From Candidatus Poribacteria bacterium (GTDB lineage Bacteria > Abyssobacteria > SURF-5), in the NCBI GenBank assembly GCA_016215705.1, contig JACRIR010000130.1, positions 1-64,000 of the forward strand: DNA of 64,000 nucleotides. The letters run 5' to 3'. Below the pieces are notes generated by a model. The model had not been told where the DNA came from. It was given only the letters and a program-made list of their open reading frames with translations, and made no database searches. Shown piece by piece: positions 29,131 through 47,131 of the stretch (position 1 is the stretch's first letter; each line of letters opens with the position of its first letter). The translations under genes and the position numbers were made by a program.

Positions 29131-29177
29131 GCGCATATTCGAGAACACCATGCGGCATGGTGTCCCCGAATATGCGC
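29131..29177. repeat. family-A palindrome copy 4
   Basis: Extended arms GCGCATATTCG and CGAATATGCGC flank the core ACACCATGCGGCATGGTGT. It fills the pdhA-pdhB gap. Confidence 0.88.
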
Positions 29178-33015: not shown

Positions 33016-36000
33016 ATGAGCAAAATCACATGGCTGCATCTGTCTGATTTCCATTTCCGGACAGAAGTGAACCCCAACACAAGCAAGGTTGAGGATTTCA
33101 ACAGCGAAATTGTCCTTTCGAGTCTGCTTGATGACATCAAGACCTATCCAGCCGAGAATGGGTTCAAGATCGACTTCATAATTATCACGGGCGATATCGC
33201 TTTTTCCGGACAGCAACACGAATATCGCAAAGCAGAGGAATTTTTGGATGAACTGCTCGGTGCTCTCAAACTCGGAAAGGACCGTCTTTTTGTCGTGCCG
33301 GGCAATCATGATATCGATAGAAGCAAGATCAAGAATTTCCTGAAACCCACTTTGGACAGCGTTGATAATATCAACGGTTTCTTAATGGATAGTGAGGCGA
33401 AGGCCTTTGTATTTGGAAAGCTTCATTGCTACAAGGACTTTGTAAATAGATATTTAAAAAAGAACCTGAAATTTGACCATGAAAACAACTATTTCTGGAC
33501 GAAGATTCTATCGGTTCGGGGAACAAAGGTCGGGATACTTGGCTTGAACTCGGCATGGAATTCTTGTGGAGACAAAGACGAACGACAACTTCTGATTGGC
33601 GAAAAGCAAGTGGCCGATGCGCTGAAGCAGGCAGAAGACGCAGATTTGAGAATCGCGGCGTTTCATCATCCTTTTGATTGGCTGAGAACCGATGACAGGA
33701 AGGTGGTTAAGCGGGACCTGGCCGAGAAATGCCATTTTGTCTTGCACGGACACCTGCATGAACCCGACTATAGTCAGGAAATTATGGCGGATTCTCGTCT
33801 AGTGGTGACCATTCCCGCCGGCGCGTGCTATGACAAACGCCCGTATAGGAATTCATACAACTATGTGAACTTCGACACAGATGCAAGAAAGGGACAGCTT
33901 CGTCTGAGAGCTTATTGTGATAAGTTGAAAGGCTGGGTGGCAGACAACGAAGTATCGAAGAACGCCGAGGATGGTATATGCAACATTGACTTCAACATAC
34001 GGACAATCAAAGAGCGACATACGCCCCGAAAGCGAGGGAAGCTCGCCGTCTCCTTGGAAATCCCTACCCAATACAGAAACTGGGTCGACACTCAGTGCGA
34101 GATACTGGATATCAAGAAACTGGTGGAAAGCAGAGACACGAAGTTAATCAACCTGGAACTTCCGCAGATATTCATACCGCTTTACACAAGCTCCCCTATT
34201 GGCAAAAGAAGGGGTAGAAGGCCTCGCCTTGACACCGACGAACAACGAGAACCAGTCGATATTGAGAAACTGGTGACTTCAAGTGATTACCTGATCATAA
34301 GGGGCCAGGCGGGTTCGGGCAAAACGACACTTATGAAGCATATGGCTTACTCCATTATTCACGGGGGCGGCAAGTATGGACTCACCGGCTATTTGCCGAT
34401 TCTGATATTCTTGAGAGACCTGCCCAAATCCGTTACGCAGAACACAGGATCGGTTCCGGGTATGGACGCAGCGGAGAAGATTCTGACTGAGTACTTTCGA
34501 AGTAAGTGTAAGTGCGAAGCACTGAGCATCGAGTTGATCGAGGCGTTTTGTCGCGAAGGCAAAGCCATATTCCTTGTTGACGGTCTCGATGAAGTCCAGC
34601 CGAAGCTTCGGGAATTCATCACTGATTCTCTGGCGGATTTCCGAAGCCCATTCAACGCCACAACGAGTAAGATGGTCTTCTCAGGCAGACCGCACGGTAT
34701 TGATGAGGCGGTTAACAGCAAGTTCCCAGGCAAGTGTGTGGATATTAACTCGCTGAATGCGGAGCAGGTGAGAGATTTCATCGAAAAATGGCTCAGGTGG
34801 GACAAGGAGTTGAAAGACAGGGCAAAGACTCCGGAAGACATGTTCGGCGAAATATACGGCCATCAAAGCGCTGAAGAGTTGATAAGCACGCCCCTTATGT
34901 TGACTGCCGCCTGTATTCTCTACCATTACGATAGGAAGCTGCCGGAACAGAGGGCCGAATTGTACGAGAGAATTATCAACAACCTGATATACAAGCGTTT
35001 TGAAAATCCCGTTGAAGCGCTGGACCTGTTGATGAACATAGCCTATAGGACTCATAGCGATAAGAAAAAAGGGTTCAGCAGGAGATTTGCGCTCGACCTC
35101 ATGACGCCCGAACGTCAGAAGAGAAACGACGAAACTGAACGGCAATATGATATAAGAGTAGGTGCGGAGTTTGCTCACATTGAGCAAGACTGCGGATTGC
35201 TCAGGCTCGATAAGGGAGAATACAGCTTCTGGCACTTGAGCTTTCAAGAGTTCCTGGCCGCGAGAGAGATAGCCACCCACAAGCGGGACTTCACAGGGGC
35301 CATTCAAGAATACTGGGACGATGATTGGTTCAACGAAACGCTTCGTTTGTTTATCGGTCATTTGAGCAACACGCATCCGGCCGAGGCCAACGGCATAGTG
35401 GAAGACCAACTGAGAAAAGAAGATCGATCACCTTTCAGGCATTGGCGGCAGGCGGCCAAATCGTTGCTCGATATCTACCCCGCCATGAGATACAAGCAAG
35501 TCGTCGCTAAGGCCCAAGAGTGCTTGTCGAACATAATCAAGAAAGCAGAAGACCCGAAGGTCCTGGCCGACGCCGGTGAAACGCTCGGCTGGCTGGGAGA
35601 TACACGGAATCTGAAGGAGTTTGTGGAAATTCAAGGGGGCCAATACGAGTTGGAGGGACTAGGTAAAACAACTATTAAACCGTTTGAGATGGCCAAATAT
35701 CCAGTAACCAATCAGTGGTATGAAGAGTTTATCAAGGCAAATGGATATAAGGAAAAGGAGTTCTGGACACCGAAAGGATGGGAATGGCTGAACGAGGGGG
35801 AATGCCAGGAGCCTTTCTACTGGCATGATCGAGCCTGGAAATGCCCGAACTCGCCGGTTGTCGGTGTCAGTTGGTATGAAGCGGAAGCTTTCTGTCGCTG
35901 GCTCACTGCAAGAAAGGATGGTTGCTCATACAGGCTGCCGACGGAACAGGAATGGCAGGCGGCCGCAGCCGGTAAAGAAGGGCGGGAGTATCCGTGGAAG

Positions 36001-36285
36001 GGCCGTTGGCGTAAGAATTGCTGCAATACAGATGAGTCCGGTATCGGCAAGACGTCAGCGGTCGGGATTTTTGCCAAAGGCACAACGCCGGAAGGTGTGG
36101 CCGATTTAGCCGGAAATGTTTGGGAGTGGACCGATAGTTGGTATGATAAGGACAAGGACGCAAAGGTGCTGCGGGGCGGCTCGTGGGGCGACGGCCGTAT
36201 CTTTGCCCGGTGTGCGTTCCGTAACTGGTTCAACAGGGCCAACCGGAACTACGTCGTGGGTTTCCGCTGTGCTAGGATCAAATAA
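33016..36285 (+). CDS. DGR target: metallophosphoesterase-NACHT-FGE/C-type-lectin protein
   Basis: 1089 residues. (1) 1-300: calcineurin-like phosphoesterase with DxH (11-13), GD (59-60), GNHD (96-99), HHPFDW (about 217) and GHLH (245-248); all metal ligands look present. (2) about 420-870: NACHT STAND NTPase, Walker A GQAGSGKTT (430-438), Walker B IFLVDGLDEVQ (about 517), then a helical region with WHLSFQEFLAA. (3) about 875-1089: FGE-sulfatase domain (YPVTNQWYEEF, RLPTEQEWQ, GVADLAGNVWEW, VLRGGSW). Residues 1051-1087 are the variable repeat. No signal peptide. STAND proteins use a C-terminal sensor to trigger an N-terminal effector; here the sensor tip is diversified. SD AAGGA upstream. An intracellular conflict role is inferred. 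Confidence 0.92.
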   Translation: MSKITWLHLSDFHFRTEVNPNTSKVEDFNSEIVLSSLLDDIKTYPAENGFKIDFIIITGDIAFSGQQHEYRKAEEFLDELLGALKLGKDRLFVVPGNHDIDRSKIKNFLKPTLDSVDNINGFLMDSEAKAFVFGKLHCYKDFVNRYLKKNLKFDHENNYFWTKILSVRGTKVGILGLNSAWNSCGDKDERQLLIGEKQVADALKQAEDADLRIAAFHHPFDWLRTDDRKVVKRDLAEKCHFVLHGHLHEPDYSQEIMADSRLVVTIPAGACYDKRPYRNSYNYVNFDTDARKGQLRLRAYCDKLKGWVADNEVSKNAEDGICNIDFNIRTIKERHTPRKRGKLAVSLEIPTQYRNWVDTQCEILDIKKLVESRDTKLINLELPQIFIPLYTSSPIGKRRGRRPRLDTDEQREPVDIEKLVTSSDYLIIRGQAGSGKTTLMKHMAYSIIHGGGKYGLTGYLPILIFLRDLPKSVTQNTGSVPGMDAAEKILTEYFRSKCKCEALSIELIEAFCREGKAIFLVDGLDEVQPKLREFITDSLADFRSPFNATTSKMVFSGRPHGIDEAVNSKFPGKCVDINSLNAEQVRDFIEKWLRWDKELKDRAKTPEDMFGEIYGHQSAEELISTPLMLTAACILYHYDRKLPEQRAELYERIINNLIYKRFENPVEALDLLMNIAYRTHSDKKKGFSRRFALDLMTPERQKRNDETERQYDIRVGAEFAHIEQDCGLLRLDKGEYSFWHLSFQEFLAAREIATHKRDFTGAIQEYWDDDWFNETLRLFIGHLSNTHPAEANGIVEDQLRKEDRSPFRHWRQAAKSLLDIYPAMRYKQVVAKAQECLSNIIKKAEDPKVLADAGETLGWLGDTRNLKEFVEIQGGQYELEGLGKTTIKPFEMAKYPVTNQWYEEFIKANGYKEKEFWTPKGWEWLNEGECQEPFYWHDRAWKCPNSPVVGVSWYEAEAFCRWLTARKDGCSYRLPTEQEWQAAAAGKEGREYPWKGRWRKNCCNTDESGIGKTSAVGIFAKGTTPEGVADLAGNVWEWTDSWYDKDKDAKVLRGGSWGDGRIFARCAFRNWFNRANRNYVVGFRCARIK
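36164..36277 (+). repeat. DGR variable repeat (VR)
   Basis: 114 bases at the end of the target gene, aligned without gaps to 37742-37855. Identical over the first 23 and the last 23 bases; 18 mismatches between, all opposite template adenines. It encodes residues 1051-1087, the ligand-binding edge of the FGE/CLec fold. Confidence 0.97.
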
Positions 36286-36318
36286 TTACGCTTTGCCCTT
36301 TTACGCTTTTACCCTTTG

Positions 36319-36335
36319 GGCCGCCGAAGGCGGCC
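36319..36335. other. hairpin downstream of VR
   Basis: GGCCGCC-GAA-GGCGGCC, perfect 7-bp stem 41 bases past the VR. DGR target sites often carry a short GC hairpin or cruciform after the VR that aids retrohoming; it could also just shape the avd leader. Confidence 0.45.
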
Positions 36336-36348
36336 GAATTCTCAGAAT

Positions 36349-36687
36349 ATGCCACAAGAAGTAGACGCCATCACCAGGTTGTATGATTATGTGCTCTGGC
36401 TTATACCCAAGCTCGAGAAGTTTCCTCGGAGCCAGAAGTTCTTGCTGGCCGACCGAATGGAGAATCTGCTGCTGGATATTCTTGATCTCCTGATTGAAGC
36501 TGCCTATTCCCGCGAGAAATCGGCTTCTTTGAAGGCGGCGAATTTGAAGCTGGAGCAAATGCGATACCTGATAAGGCTTTCGAAGGACTTGAAGCTAATC
36601 GACCTGAAGAGTTATGAATTCTCTGCTCGCGCCATTAATGCCGTCGGGGTTTCCATCGGTGGCTGGCTCAAATACAGCGAACAGTGA
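36349..36687 (+). CDS. avd: Avd-like accessory variability protein
   Basis: 112 residues, four-helix-bundle protein of the Avd / 23S-rRNA-intervening-sequence family. Helical, Lys/Arg-rich, with LYDYVLWLIPKLEKFPRSQKF, LLLDILDLLIEAAY and RYLIRLSKDLKLI. Avd forms a pentameric barrel that binds the reverse transcriptase and template RNA and is essential for mutagenic cDNA synthesis. The ATG at 36349 gives the family-typical MPQEV start; SD is poor. Its stop overlaps the RT start (GTGA). Confidence 0.88.
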   Translation: MPQEVDAITRLYDYVLWLIPKLEKFPRSQKFLLADRMENLLLDILDLLIEAAYSREKSASLKAANLKLEQMRYLIRLSKDLKLIDLKSYEFSARAINAVGVSIGGWLKYSEQ

Positions 36688-37778
36688 AAACGCACAAAAA
36701 TCTATACAGCGGAATCACCTCCTTTGATAACCTGCTTTTGGCGGCAAGGAAAGCGCAAAGGGGCAAGAGATTCAAAGAGTCTACTGCGGTTTTCAATCTG
36801 AATCTCGAAAGAGAGCTTTTGTGTATCCAGAAGGAACTGCAGGAGATGACCTACCGGCATGGCGGGTATCAAGATTTCTACGTCTACGATCCGAAACGGA
36901 GGCTGATCAGCGCGGCTCCATACCGGGATCGGATTGTGCATCATGCCCTTTGCAACGTCATAGAACCGATATTTGATCGCATCTTTATTTACGACACTTA
37001 CGCCTGTCGAAAACGAAAAGGTGTCCATGCAGCCGTCGATAGATATAACGAATATGCCCGCAAGTACACATATGTGCTGAAATGCGATATTCGGAAATAT
37101 TTTCAGAGTGTTGATCACGAGATACTTCTGGAAATGATCTCCCGAAAGATTGCATGCCCACAAACAATGTGGTTGATCACGAAAATCATCGCTTCCCGGG
37201 ACGATAAGAGCCATGTCTCATACTTCGAGAATGATACCCTTTTCACTCCATTCGAGCGGAAAAGAGGAATCCCGATCGGGAATCTCACCAGCCAATTTTT
37301 TGCCAACGTGTATTTGAATGGTTTTGATCATTTCGTAAAGGAGATTCTTGGACAGCCGTACATTCGCTATGTTGACGATTTCGTTGTGTTCGGGAATTCA
37401 AAAGGACGACTGCATGAAGTCAACGAAAAAATACAGGCTTATCTTTCCTCGTTGCGCTTGAACATCCACGAGCGAAAATGCCGGATATACAGAGTAAAGG
37501 ACGGTATTACGTTTCTCGGCTATCGTATTTTCCCAACCCATCGGTTACTCAAGAAAGACAACGTGCTGAGGATGCGGCGAAGGTTGAAGAAACTCAGCCG
37601 TAAATACAGCTCGGGCATGGTTTCGCTTCCGGCAATCAAGCTGAGGATACAAAGTTGGATTGGCCATGCCGGTCATGCCGACACATTTCGGTTGAGAGCA
37701 AGAATGCTTGCGGATGCAGTCTTTCAAAGGGGTGAGACCAGAGGTGCTGCGGGGCGGCTCGTGGAACAACAACCGTAA
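36684..37778 (+). CDS. DGR-type reverse transcriptase
   Basis: 364 residues. RT motifs in order: [32 protein letters not shown] (catalytic Asp), the DGR hallmark IGNLTSQ (198-204), YVDD (229-232, metal-binding Asp pair) and FLGYRIF. The IGxxxSQ form and the lack of thumb maturase or integrase domains separate it from group II intron RTs. GTG start overlapping avd. The last 12 codons and the TAA stop (37742-37778) are template-repeat sequence, so RT and template overlap. Confidence 0.96.
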
Positions 37779-37855
37779 CAATGCCCGGTGTGCGAACCGT
37801 AACAGGAACAACAGGAACAACCGGAACAACAACGTGGGTTTCCGCTGTGCTAGGA
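37742..37855 (+). repeat. DGR template repeat (TR)
   Basis: 114 bases with 14 AAC/AAT codons in the VR frame and 30 adenines in the variable zone, 18 of which differ in the VR (to G, T or C). It starts inside the RT gene and ends one base before a hairpin. It is non-coding in function but also encodes the RT C terminus. Confidence 0.97.
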
Positions 37856-38016
37856 CTTGGATTCCTTGGTTGGCGCCGGAGCCTTGTCTTTCACGGAAGA
37901 CAAGGGTGTGCGCCATCCAAGTCCAGGTCTCGCTCCTGTGTTGGCTCTCTCGAGCCAACCGAAACAAAAAGCTCCCTGCTCGGGCTGGTAGCGTATGTGC
38001 GAACGCTCGGGCAGGG
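37856..38016 (+). ncRNA. structured 3' region of the DGR template RNA
   Basis: Hairpin 1 abuts the TR: CTTGGA/TCCAAG (37856-37861/37916-37921), TGGCGC/GCGCCA (37871-37876/37910-37915), CCTTGTCTT/AAGACAAGG (37882-37890/37897-37905). Hairpin 2: GTTGGCTC-TCTC-GAGCCAAC (37940-37959). Hairpin 3: CCCTGC/GCAGGG (37974-37979/38011-38016) with AGCGT/ACGCT inside. In the Bordetella phage DGR the RNA just 3' of TR is needed for cDNA priming; this is the likely equivalent. Confidence 0.65.
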
Positions 38017-38287
38017 AAATATTTCATTGATTTATTCGGGTAACATGCCGTTGAGATGCAGCTCGCAATAAGGATCTATCGATGCATTCGGCTGAGATTC
38101 GTACTATCCAACTAATATGACGGGCAGTCAGAGGACCCGTGTGGTTCTCTGACACCCGGCCTGCCGCTGCGTTCCCCCCTTAAGACCGGAAGCCTTCTTC
38201 GAGGCCCGGCTTATTCGGGGACACCATGCGGCATGGCGTCCCCGAATAAGCGGGCCGTTTCGCAGTAGAAGCGGAAGGAGGCTTTCC
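38017..38287. other. structured spacer before the yedF-like gene
   Basis: Hairpin GTCAGAG/CTCTGAC (38127-38133/38147-38153) flanked by GGCA (38123-38126) and TGCC (38162-38165), then CCGG-GCCT/AGGC-CCGG (about 38187-38208), then a family-A palindrome. It may be a leader or the end of the DGR transcript; no known RNA family was recognised. Confidence 0.4.
38209..38251. repeat. family-A palindrome copy 5
   Basis: GCTTATTCGGGGACACCATG to CCCCGAATAAGC, with further GGCCC/GGGCC outside. Confidence 0.9.
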
Positions 38288-42536: not shown

Positions 42537-42806
42537 ATGACTCCACAAGATGTAGTAGACATGGGACGTGACGCACTATTGATGACATTGCTGATTTCCG
42601 CGCCGCCACTCCTTGCAGGTCTTGCCGTCGGTTTAATCATTAGCATATTTCAGGCAGTTACCCAGATACAGGAGTTCACGCTCACATTTATCCCGAAAAT
42701 TCTGGCTGTTTTCGTGGCAACTATGATATTCCTCCCGTGGATGCTACAGGTTTTTCTTGGATATACGACGAACCTTTTCTTACAGATACCGATGCTGGCG
42801 AAATGA
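42537..42806 (+). CDS. fliQ: flagellar export protein FliQ
   Basis: 89 residues, two transmembrane helices: LLMTLLISAPPLLAGLAVGL and the second around LAVFVATMIFLPWML, with IFQAVTQIQEFTL between. Part of the FliPQR export gate. fliP is not upstream as usual; the operon starts here. Confidence 0.93.
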   Translation: MTPQDVVDMGRDALLMTLLISAPPLLAGLAVGLIISIFQAVTQIQEFTLTFIPKILAVFVATMIFLPWMLQVFLGYTTNLFLQIPMLAK

Positions 42807-42849
42807 ACAAGTTTTTCGGGATGAGGTGGCGGATCGCCGAGGGCATTGC

Positions 42850-43629
42850 GTGGAAAACCCGCTCTTATTCACCGCGCTGAAGTTTCAGGCGTTTCTTCTT
42901 ATCTTTATGCGCGTGGGCGCGATGTTGTTTGTTGCGCCGGTGTTTGGCGGCGCGACGGTTCCGACGCAGACGAGGATTCTTTTCTCGATGATTATTTCTC
43001 TGGTCTTGCTGCCGATAGTGAGATTCGAGAACGCGACATTGCCTCTCGACGTGCTGCCACTGGCTTTTCTGGCCATCAACGAATTGCTGGTGGGGCTGAT
43101 ACTTGGAGCATCGCTCGTTTTCGCGTTTGCCGCTATCCAGTATGCGGGTCAGATCGTTGATTTCCAGATGGGATTCAGCATCGTGAACCTGATAGACCCA
43201 ACACAGGACGTGCAGATTCCGATCATGGGATTCTTCCACTTTCTCGTCGCGGTCCTGATCTTCCTGGCGATGGACGCGCATCACTGGATAATCCGCGCCC
43301 TCGTGGACAGTTTTGAAATCGTACCGCTCATGCAAGCGGGTTTCTCGGGACTGGTCGTAAAGGAGATTGCCAGAGGTTTCGGCGACTTGTTCGTGGTTGC
43401 CATGAGGATTGCGGCGCCCGCCATCGCAGTGCTGATGCTGTACAACGCTGCGCTCGGAATCATTGCCAAAACGGTGCCGCAGATTAACCTGCTGATTGTC
43501 GGCTTCCCGGCCCGTATAGCTCTTGGCATGATTGTGGTGGGTCTCTCGATGACATTCTTTTATCCGTATCTGACACATGTCTTCGACATGATGATCGCGA
43601 ATGCGTATTCGATAATGAAGCGGTTTTGA
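42850..43629 (+). CDS. fliR: flagellar export protein FliR
   Basis: 259 residues, six hydrophobic helices; ALKFQAFLLIFMRVGAMLF, PTQTRILFSMIISLVLLP, VDFQMGFSIVNLIDPTQDVQ, PAIAVLMLYNAALGIIAK. The GTG at 42850 with GAGGG upstream gives the usual size; the frame begins 31 codons earlier without a membrane pattern. Completes the FliPQR gate with FliQ. Confidence 0.9.
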   Translation: MENPLLFTALKFQAFLLIFMRVGAMLFVAPVFGGATVPTQTRILFSMIISLVLLPIVRFENATLPLDVLPLAFLAINELLVGLILGASLVFAFAAIQYAGQIVDFQMGFSIVNLIDPTQDVQIPIMGFFHFLVAVLIFLAMDAHHWIIRALVDSFEIVPLMQAGFSGLVVKEIARGFGDLFVVAMRIAAPAIAVLMLYNAALGIIAKTVPQINLLIVGFPARIALGMIVVGLSMTFFYPYLTHVFDMMIANAYSIMKRF

Positions 43630-43654
43630 GTGACCGACCCCGCCGCGCGGGGTC

Positions 43655-43697
43655 GCTTATTCGGGGACACGATGCCGCATCGTGTCCCCGAATAAGC
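43655..43697. repeat. family-A palindrome copy 6
   Basis: Core GACACGATGCCGCATCGTGTC: inner arm C to G and G to C are paired, preserving symmetry. Adjacent GACCCC/GGGGTC hairpin at 43636-43654. Confidence 0.9.
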
Positions 43698-43735
43698 GCG
43701 TCTTTGTCAAGCGCGCTTTTGTCAGGAGGTGATCG

Positions 43736-44851
43736 ATGCCCGAACCATACGGTGGCGAGAAGACGGAGCCTGCAACCCCGCGCCGGCGCGAGGAAGTGCG
43801 GAAGAAGGGACAAGTTGCGCGGAGCGTCGACCTGACTTCCTCCATCATGCTTCTGGCGTCGATGCTTGCGCTCTACTTTCTCACGCCCACCTTGATGCGC
43901 GAACTGATGGATGTGACTCGCTCATACCTGGCAAATGCCGCCACTACACGGGTCGACGTCGATTCCGCGCCCGTACTCCTGATAGGAATGGCGCTGCAGG
44001 TGAGCGGTTTTTTCGTTCCCTTCATGCTCATAATTCTTTCCGCCGCTCTAGTGGCAAACATGGCGCAAGTCGGTTTCAGTCTTAGCGGTTATCCTCTGGT
44101 TCCCCGCATCGAGAAGATCAGTCCGGGCGCCGGCTTCAGGCGACTCTTTTCGGCCCGTTCGTTCGCCGAGCTCGTGAAGTCGATTTTCAAGATTGCCATA
44201 GTCGGCCTGATAGCATATTTCACTATCCGGCGCGAGTTCGACCGGCTGATGGGATTGATGAACGTGGACGTGTGGGGCGCATGGGTCTTTTTCGGCAGGT
44301 TGTCTTTTACGCTCGGTATGAGGGTCGCGATCGCGTTTCTCGTGCTCGGGCTTGCCGATTACGGATTCCAGCGCTATCAGTTCGAGCAAGACATAAGGAT
44401 GACGAAAGAGGAAGTTCGTCAAGAGATAAAGGACTTCGAGGGCGACCCGCAAATCCGTGCGCGCATCCGGCGCGTGCGCAGGCAGATGGCGATAAGCCGC
44501 ATGATGGCGGAAGTGCCGCGTGCGCACGTCGTGGTGACCAACCCGACATCTCTCGCGGTTGCTCTTAAGTATGAGATGCGCGAAATGCCGGCGCCTGTGG
44601 TTGTTGCAAAAGGGGCGCGTTTGATGGCGGAACGCATTCGGGAGGTGGCAGCCTCCAATGGCGTGCCCATTGTCGAGAACGTGCCGCTTGCACAAATGCT
44701 TTTCAAATCGGTCGAGATAGGGTCGCCGATTCCGGAAAGACTCTACCGCGCGGTCGCAGAGGTGCTCGCATACGTTTATCAGATTGACACGCGGAGCCGA
44801 CAACGGTGGGTGTCGCTCGGAGCATCGGCCGCGAGTGGCGCAGCAAAATGA
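43736..44851 (+). CDS. flhB: flagellar export switch protein FlhB (NPTS variant)
   Basis: 371 residues. KTEPATPRRREEVRKKGQVARS, four transmembrane helices, and the cytoplasmic autocleavage domain. The cleavage motif, normally NPTH, is NPTS (Asn269-Pro-Thr-Ser272), then LAVALKYE. The His normally helps Asn-Pro cleavage and the switch to filament export. Very strong SD AGGAGGTGATC 2 bases before the ATG. A second, FlhB-C-only gene (fhlB) sits at the operon end. Confidence 0.94.
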   Translation: MPEPYGGEKTEPATPRRREEVRKKGQVARSVDLTSSIMLLASMLALYFLTPTLMRELMDVTRSYLANAATTRVDVDSAPVLLIGMALQVSGFFVPFMLIILSAALVANMAQVGFSLSGYPLVPRIEKISPGAGFRRLFSARSFAELVKSIFKIAIVGLIAYFTIRREFDRLMGLMNVDVWGAWVFFGRLSFTLGMRVAIAFLVLGLADYGFQRYQFEQDIRMTKEEVRQEIKDFEGDPQIRARIRRVRRQMAISRMMAEVPRAHVVVTNPTSLAVALKYEMREMPAPVVVAKGARLMAERIREVAASNGVPIVENVPLAQMLFKSVEIGSPIPERLYRAVAEVLAYVYQIDTRSRQRWVSLGASAASGAAK

Positions 44852-44895
44852 CGAGAGCAAGGGGCGAGAGCCCGTGTCACAGTGCGCAAATGGGA

Positions 44896-44938
44896 GCTTA
44901 TTCGGGGACACCATGCGGCATGGTGTCCCCGAATAAGC
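44896..44938. repeat. family-A palindrome copy 7
   Basis: GCTTATTCGGGGACACCATG ... CCCCGAATAAGC, perfect arms, in the flhB-flhA gap. Confidence 0.92.
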
Positions 44939-45031
44939 GTGGCTTTCTTAGGCGCGGGACGCGTTCTCTGAAGGGTTGAATTCATTCGATCACGTTGAAT
45001 TGCCGGACGGATTCGTTGAGGGTATTCTTAG

Positions 45032-47131
45032 ATGGCTCAAGCAACGGTAACGCCGAGATTACAGCGGATGGCTCGCAATCAGGACCTGATTGTCGCGGTC
45101 ATCATCATCGGCATACTGTTCGTGATGCTCGTGCGAGTGCCTCCATGGATGCTCGACTTGCTGCTCACCTTGAACATCTCCATCTCAGTTCTGATTATTC
45201 TCGTGACCATGTACGTTCGTGAGCCGCTCCAGTTCTCCGTCTTCCCATCCCTTCTGCTCATAACCACGCTGTTCCGCCTGTCGCTCAATGTTGCCTCGAC
45301 AAGGCTTATCCTTCTTGAGGCGTACGCGGGCCAGGTCATACAGGCGTTTGGCACATTCGTAGTGGGCGGCAATTACGTCGTCGGAATGATCATCTTCCTC
45401 ATACTGGTCGTCATCCAATTCGTCGTAATAACGCGCGGCGCCGGCCGCATCTCGGAGGTCGCGGCCAGGTTCACGCTTGACGCAATGCCCGGCAAGCAGA
45501 TGAGCATCGACGCGGACTTGAACGCCGGACTGGTTACCGAAGATCAGGCGCGTGCGCGCCGCCGCGGCATCGAAGACGAAGCCGATTTCTACGGCGCCAT
45601 GGACGGCGCCACCAAGTTTATACGAGGTGACGCGATAGCCGGCTTAATCATCACGGTCATCAACATAGTCGGCGGCCTGATAATAGGCGTGCTCCAGCAG
45701 GGTTTCTCGCTGACTGAAGCGGCGCAAAGATACACCATCCTGACCGTTGGCGATGGTCTCGTTGCGCAAGTTCCCGCGCTTTTCATCTCGACTGCAGCCG
45801 GTATAATAATCACGCGTACGGTGTCGGAAACTAATCTCGGCGCCGACGTGACGCGGCAGATGCTCAGTTTCCCGAGGGCCGTCGCGATCTCGGCGCTGCT
45901 CCTCGTAGTGTTCGCGCTCGTTCCCGGGCTTCCGACGATTCCGTTCTTGATGATAGCCGCGGGCGCTGGTTTCGTGTGGTTTCAACTGAACCGGTCGCAG
46001 GCGCAAGCGAAAGTCACGGAGGAGCGCGAGCGGAAAACGCGAGAGGCCGCAACGCCGAAAGCGCCGGAAAGCGTCGAGGGCCTTCTCAAGATTGACGCGA
46101 TGGAAATTGAGATAGGTTACGGGCTTATTCCGCTGGCCGACCCGAAGCAGGGCGGCGACCTGCTAAACAGAATTTCAGACATCCGTCGTCGCATGGCGCT
46201 CAAGATGGGCATCGTCGTTCCTCCGATACGCATTCGGGACAACATGGCGCTCAAGCCCAATGAGTACACCATCCGGATCAGGGGAAACGAGGTTGCGCGC
46301 GGCGAGCTTTTGACCGACCACCTGCTCATCATGAACCCCGGGAAGGTGATGGAGAAGATTCCGGGAATCGAAACGAGGGAGCCGACGTTCGGGCTCGAGG
46401 CCACGTGGATAACCGAGTCCCAGCGCGCGCGGGCTGAACAACTGGGCTACACCATTGTTGATCCGCCGTCAGTGCTTGCCACGCATCTGACCGAGATAAT
46501 CCAGGCGCGAGCGCATGAGCTTCTGGGGCGGCAAGAAGTGAACAATCTCATAGAAAACGTCAAGAAGACTGCTCCCGTGGTCGTGGAAGAATTGATACCC
46601 AACCTGATCACGATGGGCGATATTCAAAAGGTGTTGCGCAATCTTCTGAAGGAGAGGATTCCTGTTCGAAACCTCGAAGTGATACTGGAAACACTTGCCG
46701 ACTACGCGCGCCGCACAAAGGACACAGCCGTTCTGACGGAATACGTCAGACAGGCGCTCGGGCGCACCATCTGCCAGGAGCACATGGACGAGAAGGGCCA
46801 GATATTTGCCGCCACTCTCGACCCGAGGCTCGAGCAGAAAATCACGGAGTCGCTGAGAGAATCGGACGCCGGCACGTATGTTGCCCTTGATCCGGTGACG
46901 GTTCAGAAAATAATAGCCGCCGCAACGGCGGAATCCAAACGCATGGTGAGCGAAGGTCGTCAGCCCATTGTTGTTTGTTCTCCCAGGGTGCGGCCCTATT
47001 TCAAACAGTTGGTGCAGGGCTCTCTTCCCGGGCTCGTTGTGCTGAGTTTTGCCGAGGTTGTGCAGGAGGCTAGGCTCCATGCCGAAAGGATGGTGAGCAT
47101 CGAAAGTGGAACTGAAACGGTTTCGCGCTAA
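45032..47131 (+). CDS. flhA: flagellar export protein FlhA
   Basis: 699 residues. N-terminal eight-helix membrane part with VVITRGAGRISEVAARFTLDAMPGKQM and the DADLNAGLVTEDQAR FHIPEP-type loop; the cytoplasmic ring domain starts near residue 330. GAGGG 8 bases before ATG. flhF begins inside its last 26 bases. Confidence 0.96.
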   Translation: MAQATVTPRLQRMARNQDLIVAVIIIGILFVMLVRVPPWMLDLLLTLNISISVLIILVTMYVREPLQFSVFPSLLLITTLFRLSLNVASTRLILLEAYAGQVIQAFGTFVVGGNYVVGMIIFLILVVIQFVVITRGAGRISEVAARFTLDAMPGKQMSIDADLNAGLVTEDQARARRRGIEDEADFYGAMDGATKFIRGDAIAGLIITVINIVGGLIIGVLQQGFSLTEAAQRYTILTVGDGLVAQVPALFISTAAGIIITRTVSETNLGADVTRQMLSFPRAVAISALLLVVFALVPGLPTIPFLMIAAGAGFVWFQLNRSQAQAKVTEERERKTREAATPKAPESVEGLLKIDAMEIEIGYGLIPLADPKQGGDLLNRISDIRRRMALKMGIVVPPIRIRDNMALKPNEYTIRIRGNEVARGELLTDHLLIMNPGKVMEKIPGIETREPTFGLEATWITESQRARAEQLGYTIVDPPSVLATHLTEIIQARAHELLGRQEVNNLIENVKKTAPVVVEELIPNLITMGDIQKVLRNLLKERIPVRNLEVILETLADYARRTKDTAVLTEYVRQALGRTICQEHMDEKGQIFAATLDPRLEQKITESLRESDAGTYVALDPVTVQKIIAAATAESKRMVSEGRQPIVVCSPRVRPYFKQLVQGSLPGLVVLSFAEVVQEARLHAERMVSIESGTETVSR

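Follow-up and report, generated by a model that had tools for sequence, protein, structure and literature searches.

Diversity-generating retroelements (DGRs) as such are common. In the DGR of Bordetella phage BPP-1, a hairpin after the variable repeat (VR) is required for efficient retrohoming, and the hairpins of phage DGRs carry a GRNA loop and lie 4-34 bp from the VR (Guo et al., 2011, PMC3240598). The RNA that follows the template repeat (TR) of BPP-1 interacts with the reverse transcriptase (RT) and with Avd, as cited in PMC8867640. In cells, DGR-diversified STAND/NACHT-CLec proteins have been put forward as putative antigen sensors, a proposal that its authors describe as made without an experimental test (Doré et al., 2024, PMC10907252). 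For DS-8, phage protection is reported and requires residues of both the metallophosphatase and the NACHT domain; the main text of the DefensePredictor study that reports this makes no mention of DGRs (PMC13092281). Here, we describe a cellular DGR from a 64,000-nt stretch of a Candidatus Poribacteria genome (the window; contig JACRIR010000130.1, positions 1 to 64,000), from a bacterium of a rare phylum; the target of this DGR is related to DS-8. The locus is arranged in the order target gene, hairpin, avd, RT, TR (overlapping RT) and structured RNA.

Repeats, Avd and reverse transcriptase

Direct alignment of the VR (36164-36277, + strand) with the TR (37742-37855, + strand) was gapless over 114 bp. 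The two repeats differ at 18 positions, and 18/18 of these are adenines in the TR (A>T 10, A>G 7 and A>C 1); the TR has 33 adenines in total, 30 of which are in the variable zone. Within this zone, 18/30 adenines were changed compared with 0/38 of the other bases (p = 7e-9). The 23-bp flanks at both ends are identical, and homology stops abruptly beyond them. When the TR is read in the target frame, it contains 14 AAC/AAT codons, each of which can give rise to 15 possible residues and to no stop; AGG codons are also read in this frame. Counted over the codons, the FGE/C-type-lectin domain of the target could exist in about 8e17 protein variants.

The accessory variability determinant gene avd (36349-36687, + strand) lies between VR and TR, and its product was matched by the model NF033474 with 106.2 bits against a cutoff of 80, and also by bAvd. 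The listed open reading frame starts at 36316; the ATG conserved in L024 (introduced below) gives a protein of 112 aa. The RT gene (36684-37778, + strand; 364 aa), also located between the repeats, encodes the IGNLTSQ and YVDD motifs and scored 424 bits against the PHROG reverse transcriptase family (2e-126). Both reading frames are intact. The TR begins before the RT gene ends, such that its first 37 bp (37742-37778) are common to both. The closest RT in public genomes (66% identity) belongs to a DGR of bacterium Dive96_bin10.193 (JAJRUP010000119.1, here L024), which has the same TR/RT overlap, RNA and hairpin as the window. A tree of 36 DGR RTs paired these two at 100/96 and placed them within a 95/91 group that also holds planctomycete, cyanobacterial, Methylococcaceae and Chromatiaceae DGRs.

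These directly established parts and the adenine bias make it as good as certain that the locus is a genuine, complete cellular DGR. The sequence-only reading had already proposed DGR identity, adenine-specific mutagenesis, a stop-free AAY codon design and at least one rewriting of the VR; all four are borne out by the analysis. It had also placed the complete DGR at 36164-37855. The completeness stands, but that span omits the greater part of the target gene as well as the RNA that follows the TR. A search for a second DGR in the genome, using RT searches and the RNA model described below, found none. Another RT gene (contig C221; L001, 310-1665, - strand), considered as a candidate second DGR, was rejected, since its sequence looks like that of a group II intron RT.

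Hairpin and structured RNA

A 17-nt hairpin, GGCCGCC-GAA-GGCGGCC, is located at 36319-36335 (+ strand), 41 bp after the VR, and is common to relatives. The stretch from VR to hairpin is similar in a paralogue on contig C219 (see below) and in both L024 targets, and a hairpin of this kind is also present at another DGR locus (L025); the loops across these relatives are GAA, GCA or GTAA. Loop and distance to the VR differ slightly from those of phage DGR hairpins. By analogy with BPP-1, the hairpin is likely a homing signal.

We also found a conserved structured RNA at 37857-38035 (+ strand), which is indicated by its folding z-score, by covariation and by model matches. The 195 nt 3' of the TR fold with a z-score of -5.66 relative to shuffles. 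In an alignment with nine other DGRs, all of which have the template downstream of the RT as well, compensatory changes were observed in 27/30 predicted pairs; the covariation score was 0.761, compared with 0.318 (sd 0.032) for shuffles, and sliding the partners gave no more than 0.346. A covariance model built from this alignment (R1) found copies outside its training set, in an Acaryochloris plasmid (L038, 91.9 bits) and in L026 (29.7 bits), as well as partial copies in phage-type DGRs. A second-round model (R2) was run on 75 other DGR loci (479 kb), and 27/27 matches (E up to 1) were on the RT strand, upstream of the RT and at most 220 nt from it; at loci with an identified TR, the match follows that repeat. 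Such placement would have a chance of about 1e-48 if matches fell at random in independent loci, and the true chance is less extreme because several of the loci are near copies. The signal persists in the combined alignment, which was fitted to the model (covariation score 0.639 versus 0.214). The common core consists of a long stem and an inner GUAG...CGAA(C) loop and stem.

In the host genome, the RNA model matches once, and no Rfam family corresponds to this RNA. Neither R1 nor R2 matched BPP-1; thus, the likeness to the BPP-1 RNA is one of position and role only. The RNA is probably an Sp-like RNA for RT-Avd binding and priming. In the Acaryochloris plasmid, the DGR RNA (L038, 2472-2638, - strand) is opposite to the RT strand, beyond an IS element and adjoining an FGE gene, as if its template had been displaced. 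With the covariance model, DGR templates can be sought independently of VR/TR comparison.

Target protein, its relatives and surroundings

The target gene (33016-36285, + strand) encodes a protein of 1089 aa, in which Pfam and DS-8 model matches directly establish a metallophosphatase-NACHT (STAND)-FGE/C-type-lectin architecture. The metallophosphatase domain (aa 7-250, 33034-33765, + strand; Pfam Metallophos 2e-9) has intact SDFH, GDI, GNHD, FHH and GHLH motifs, and the NACHT NTPase domain (aa 425-594, 34288-34797, + strand; Pfam 2.3e-10) has intact Walker A (GQAGSGKT) and Walker B (LVDGLDE) motifs. The FGE-type C-lectin domain (aa 873-1087, 35632-36276, + strand; Pfam FGE-sulfatase 2.7e-47) carries the VR at its C-terminus. 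A structure model of this domain, of moderate quality overall (pTM 0.65) but poor in the VR region, matched FGE-fold structures in Foldseek; a single-sequence model of the whole target was uninformative (pLDDT 34). The protein follows the STAND/NACHT receptor plan of effector, NTPase and sensor, and we propose the FGE-type C-lectin domain as the sensor.

The NCBIfam model of DS-8 (NF053861) matched the target with E = 5.7e-53 and 179.9 bits. The homology is collinear: positions 1-275 and 353-528 of the model align with the metallophosphatase and the NACHT domain in the same order. Since this score is far below the equivalog cutoff of 790, the target is a relative of DS-8 and not DS-8 itself; by the same rule, 180 bits do not allow the function of DS-8 to be transferred.

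A genome-wide search for further VR copies, which the sequence-only reading had proposed, found one more place, a diverged former VR on contig C219. The gene there (L014, 13883-17617), the second of this kind in the genome, has an AAA-ATPase/TrmB-like N-terminus, and its NACHT-FGE body is the same as that of the target (65% identity over residues 328-1089). Compared with the TR, its VR-like end differs at 20/33 adenines and at 13/81 other positions (p = 6e-6), and five of these 13 non-adenine differences are in the last 23 bases. From this pattern, the gene looks like a former DGR target that has since drifted. No second active VR was found in the genome, and this is its only other TR-like place. 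The template of the former target is missing from the assembly, and the gene adjoins another AAA-ATPase gene (region L014, 13883-18871).

L024 has, like the window, a metallophosphatase-NACHT-FGE target, and unlike the window it also has an intact methyltransferase-NACHT-FGE target, so that the same NACHT-FGE body occurs on other N-termini both in the host genome and in L024. In the metallophosphatase target of L024 (5100-8604), a stop codon interrupts the phosphatase domain and the reading frame shifts within the VR, which makes it a pseudogene. Even so, adenine changes are present in this VR. Targets of sister DGRs have NACHT-HEAT-FGE (L028) and caspase-FGE (L030) architectures. Furthermore, plasmid pTs485 of Candidatus Thiodictyon syntrophicum encodes two metallophosphatase-NACHT-FGE proteins that are 27-28% identical to the target. 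These proteins (L035, 8001-11600 and 16120-19396) have VR-like C-termini. No close DGR RT was found on pTs485, only a distant one (28% identity; L144, 389064-389663, in a 1112-aa open frame), and the template for these targets is possibly elsewhere in the Thiodictyon genome.

In the two other genomes of the phylum that were compared (three in all), we found neither a DGR RT of the window kind nor a metallophosphatase-NACHT-FGE homologue; in one of these two, the gene after the E2 homologue, judged from its open reading frame, reads as a HAD-like hydrolase. The G+C content of the cassette is 0.47-0.49, compared with 0.54-0.55 in its neighbours, and the cassette is likely, but not proven, to have been gained horizontally. 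A palindromic REP-like element with two 24-nt arms (CTTATTCGGGGACACCATGC/GCATGGCGTCCCCGAATAAG) is located at 38206-38254, near 29148, 44901, 49200 and 55804, and genome-wide; its 23-nt half-site pattern has 133 matches per strand in the genome and none in the two relatives. Reading the flanks by eye, we recognised no further defence genes adjoining the DGR. Downstream of it (42537-47131), open reading frames resemble by eye the flagellar export genes fliQ, fliR, flhB and flhA, which suggests a motile host.

Proposed immune role and comparison with known systems

We propose that the target is a DS-8-like anti-phage STAND receptor and that the DGR varies its C-terminal sensor, a reading to which we assign a probability of roughly 0.7; the immune role draws on homology and on the published STAND-CLec proposal (Doré et al., 2024). 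The ligand, the effector substrate and the anti-phage role of the target, as well as present-day activity of the DGR, are what we infer. TR and downstream RNA would be transcribed, and the structured RNA would bind the RT-Avd complex and set up cDNA priming. The RT would then misincorporate opposite template adenines, and the mutated cDNA would replace the VR through retrohoming, for which the identical 3' flank and the hairpin beyond it would serve as guides. Ligand binding would cause NACHT oligomerisation and activation of the N-terminal metallophosphatase, whose substrate is probably a nucleotide or nucleic acid, and the result would be defence or abortive infection.

FGE domains are common, and six places in the genome match, the TR itself among them; TR and VR could in principle be mere repeat copies of an FGE segment, set apart by ordinary mutation. 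However, the probability that 18/18 mismatches fall on the 33 TR adenines by chance is 2.6e-12, 164/166 differences across eleven VR/TR pairs of related DGRs are at adenines, and the locus has Avd and RT as well as the structured RNA and the hairpin, which makes this origin vanishingly improbable; the adenine-only substitution pattern likewise rules out chance or simple duplication. That the VR was rewritten once and the DGR has since fallen silent is improbable as well, although a single VR allele was sampled and both the C219 copy and the second L024 target are examples of target decay. The open reading frames are all open, the catalytic motifs are intact, and RNA and hairpin are conserved. 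In addition, the VR has 0/81 non-adenine differences from the TR, compared with 13 in the drifted C219 copy, which argues for a recent rewriting of the VR.

A more serious alternative, which we consider unlikely yet clearly ahead of these two, is a genuine DGR whose target serves non-phage recognition or signalling (kin recognition, or surface or metabolite sensing), with the metallophosphatase tuning a cyclic nucleotide. The nearest solved metallophosphatases are cyclic-nucleotide phosphodiesterase-like, e.g. Rv0805, most cellular DGR targets are described as membrane-anchored binding proteins (PMC8144416), and the function of STAND-CLec targets is without experimental test (PMC10907252). On the other hand, the metallophosphatase-NACHT pair is collinear with a validated anti-phage protein, and the caspase or NACHT domains of the sister targets, being typical of conflict systems, support a role of that kind. 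The anti-phage receptor remains the preferred reading. In its widest form, for which we see about even odds, the locus is a mutable innate-immune receptor with a DS-8-type effector and switch, in which a phage-sensing domain is rewritten by the retroelement, the switch-sensor body is shuffled onto other effectors, and the template RNA belongs to a structured family of cellular and phage DGRs. If true, this would be self-diversifying anti-phage immunity distinct from CRISPR, and the cassette may let the cell keep making new virus sensors. A phage assay and inactivating mutants already exist for DS-8, and so the idea of a hypermutated immune sensor is directly testable.

As in DS-8, an N-terminal metallophosphatase is followed by NACHT; unlike in DS-8, the C-terminal sensor of the target is an FGE/CLec domain bearing a DGR variable region. 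The BPP-1 DGR also has Avd, RT, TR, VR, a hairpin after the VR and an RNA after the TR, but its order is VR-avd-TR-RT, whereas it is VR-avd-RT-TR here, and its target is the phage tail. DGRs 3, 6 and 7 of Thiohalocapsa PB-PSB1 share with the window an NACHT-type NTPase target with a VR-bearing FGE/CLec end, and DGR 7 also combines phosphodiesterase and NACHT (PMC10907252); an NACHT-CLec DGR target is therefore an already known kind. In contrast to Thiohalocapsa, the window has a single metallophosphatase-NACHT-FGE target that is collinear with DS-8 and without vWA, MoxR/VMAP partners were not recognised, and the genome holds one DGR plus a decayed target with a different N-terminus. Three points are new here: the target is tied to DS-8, a decayed paralogue carries a different N-terminus, and the DGR RNA now has a covariance model.
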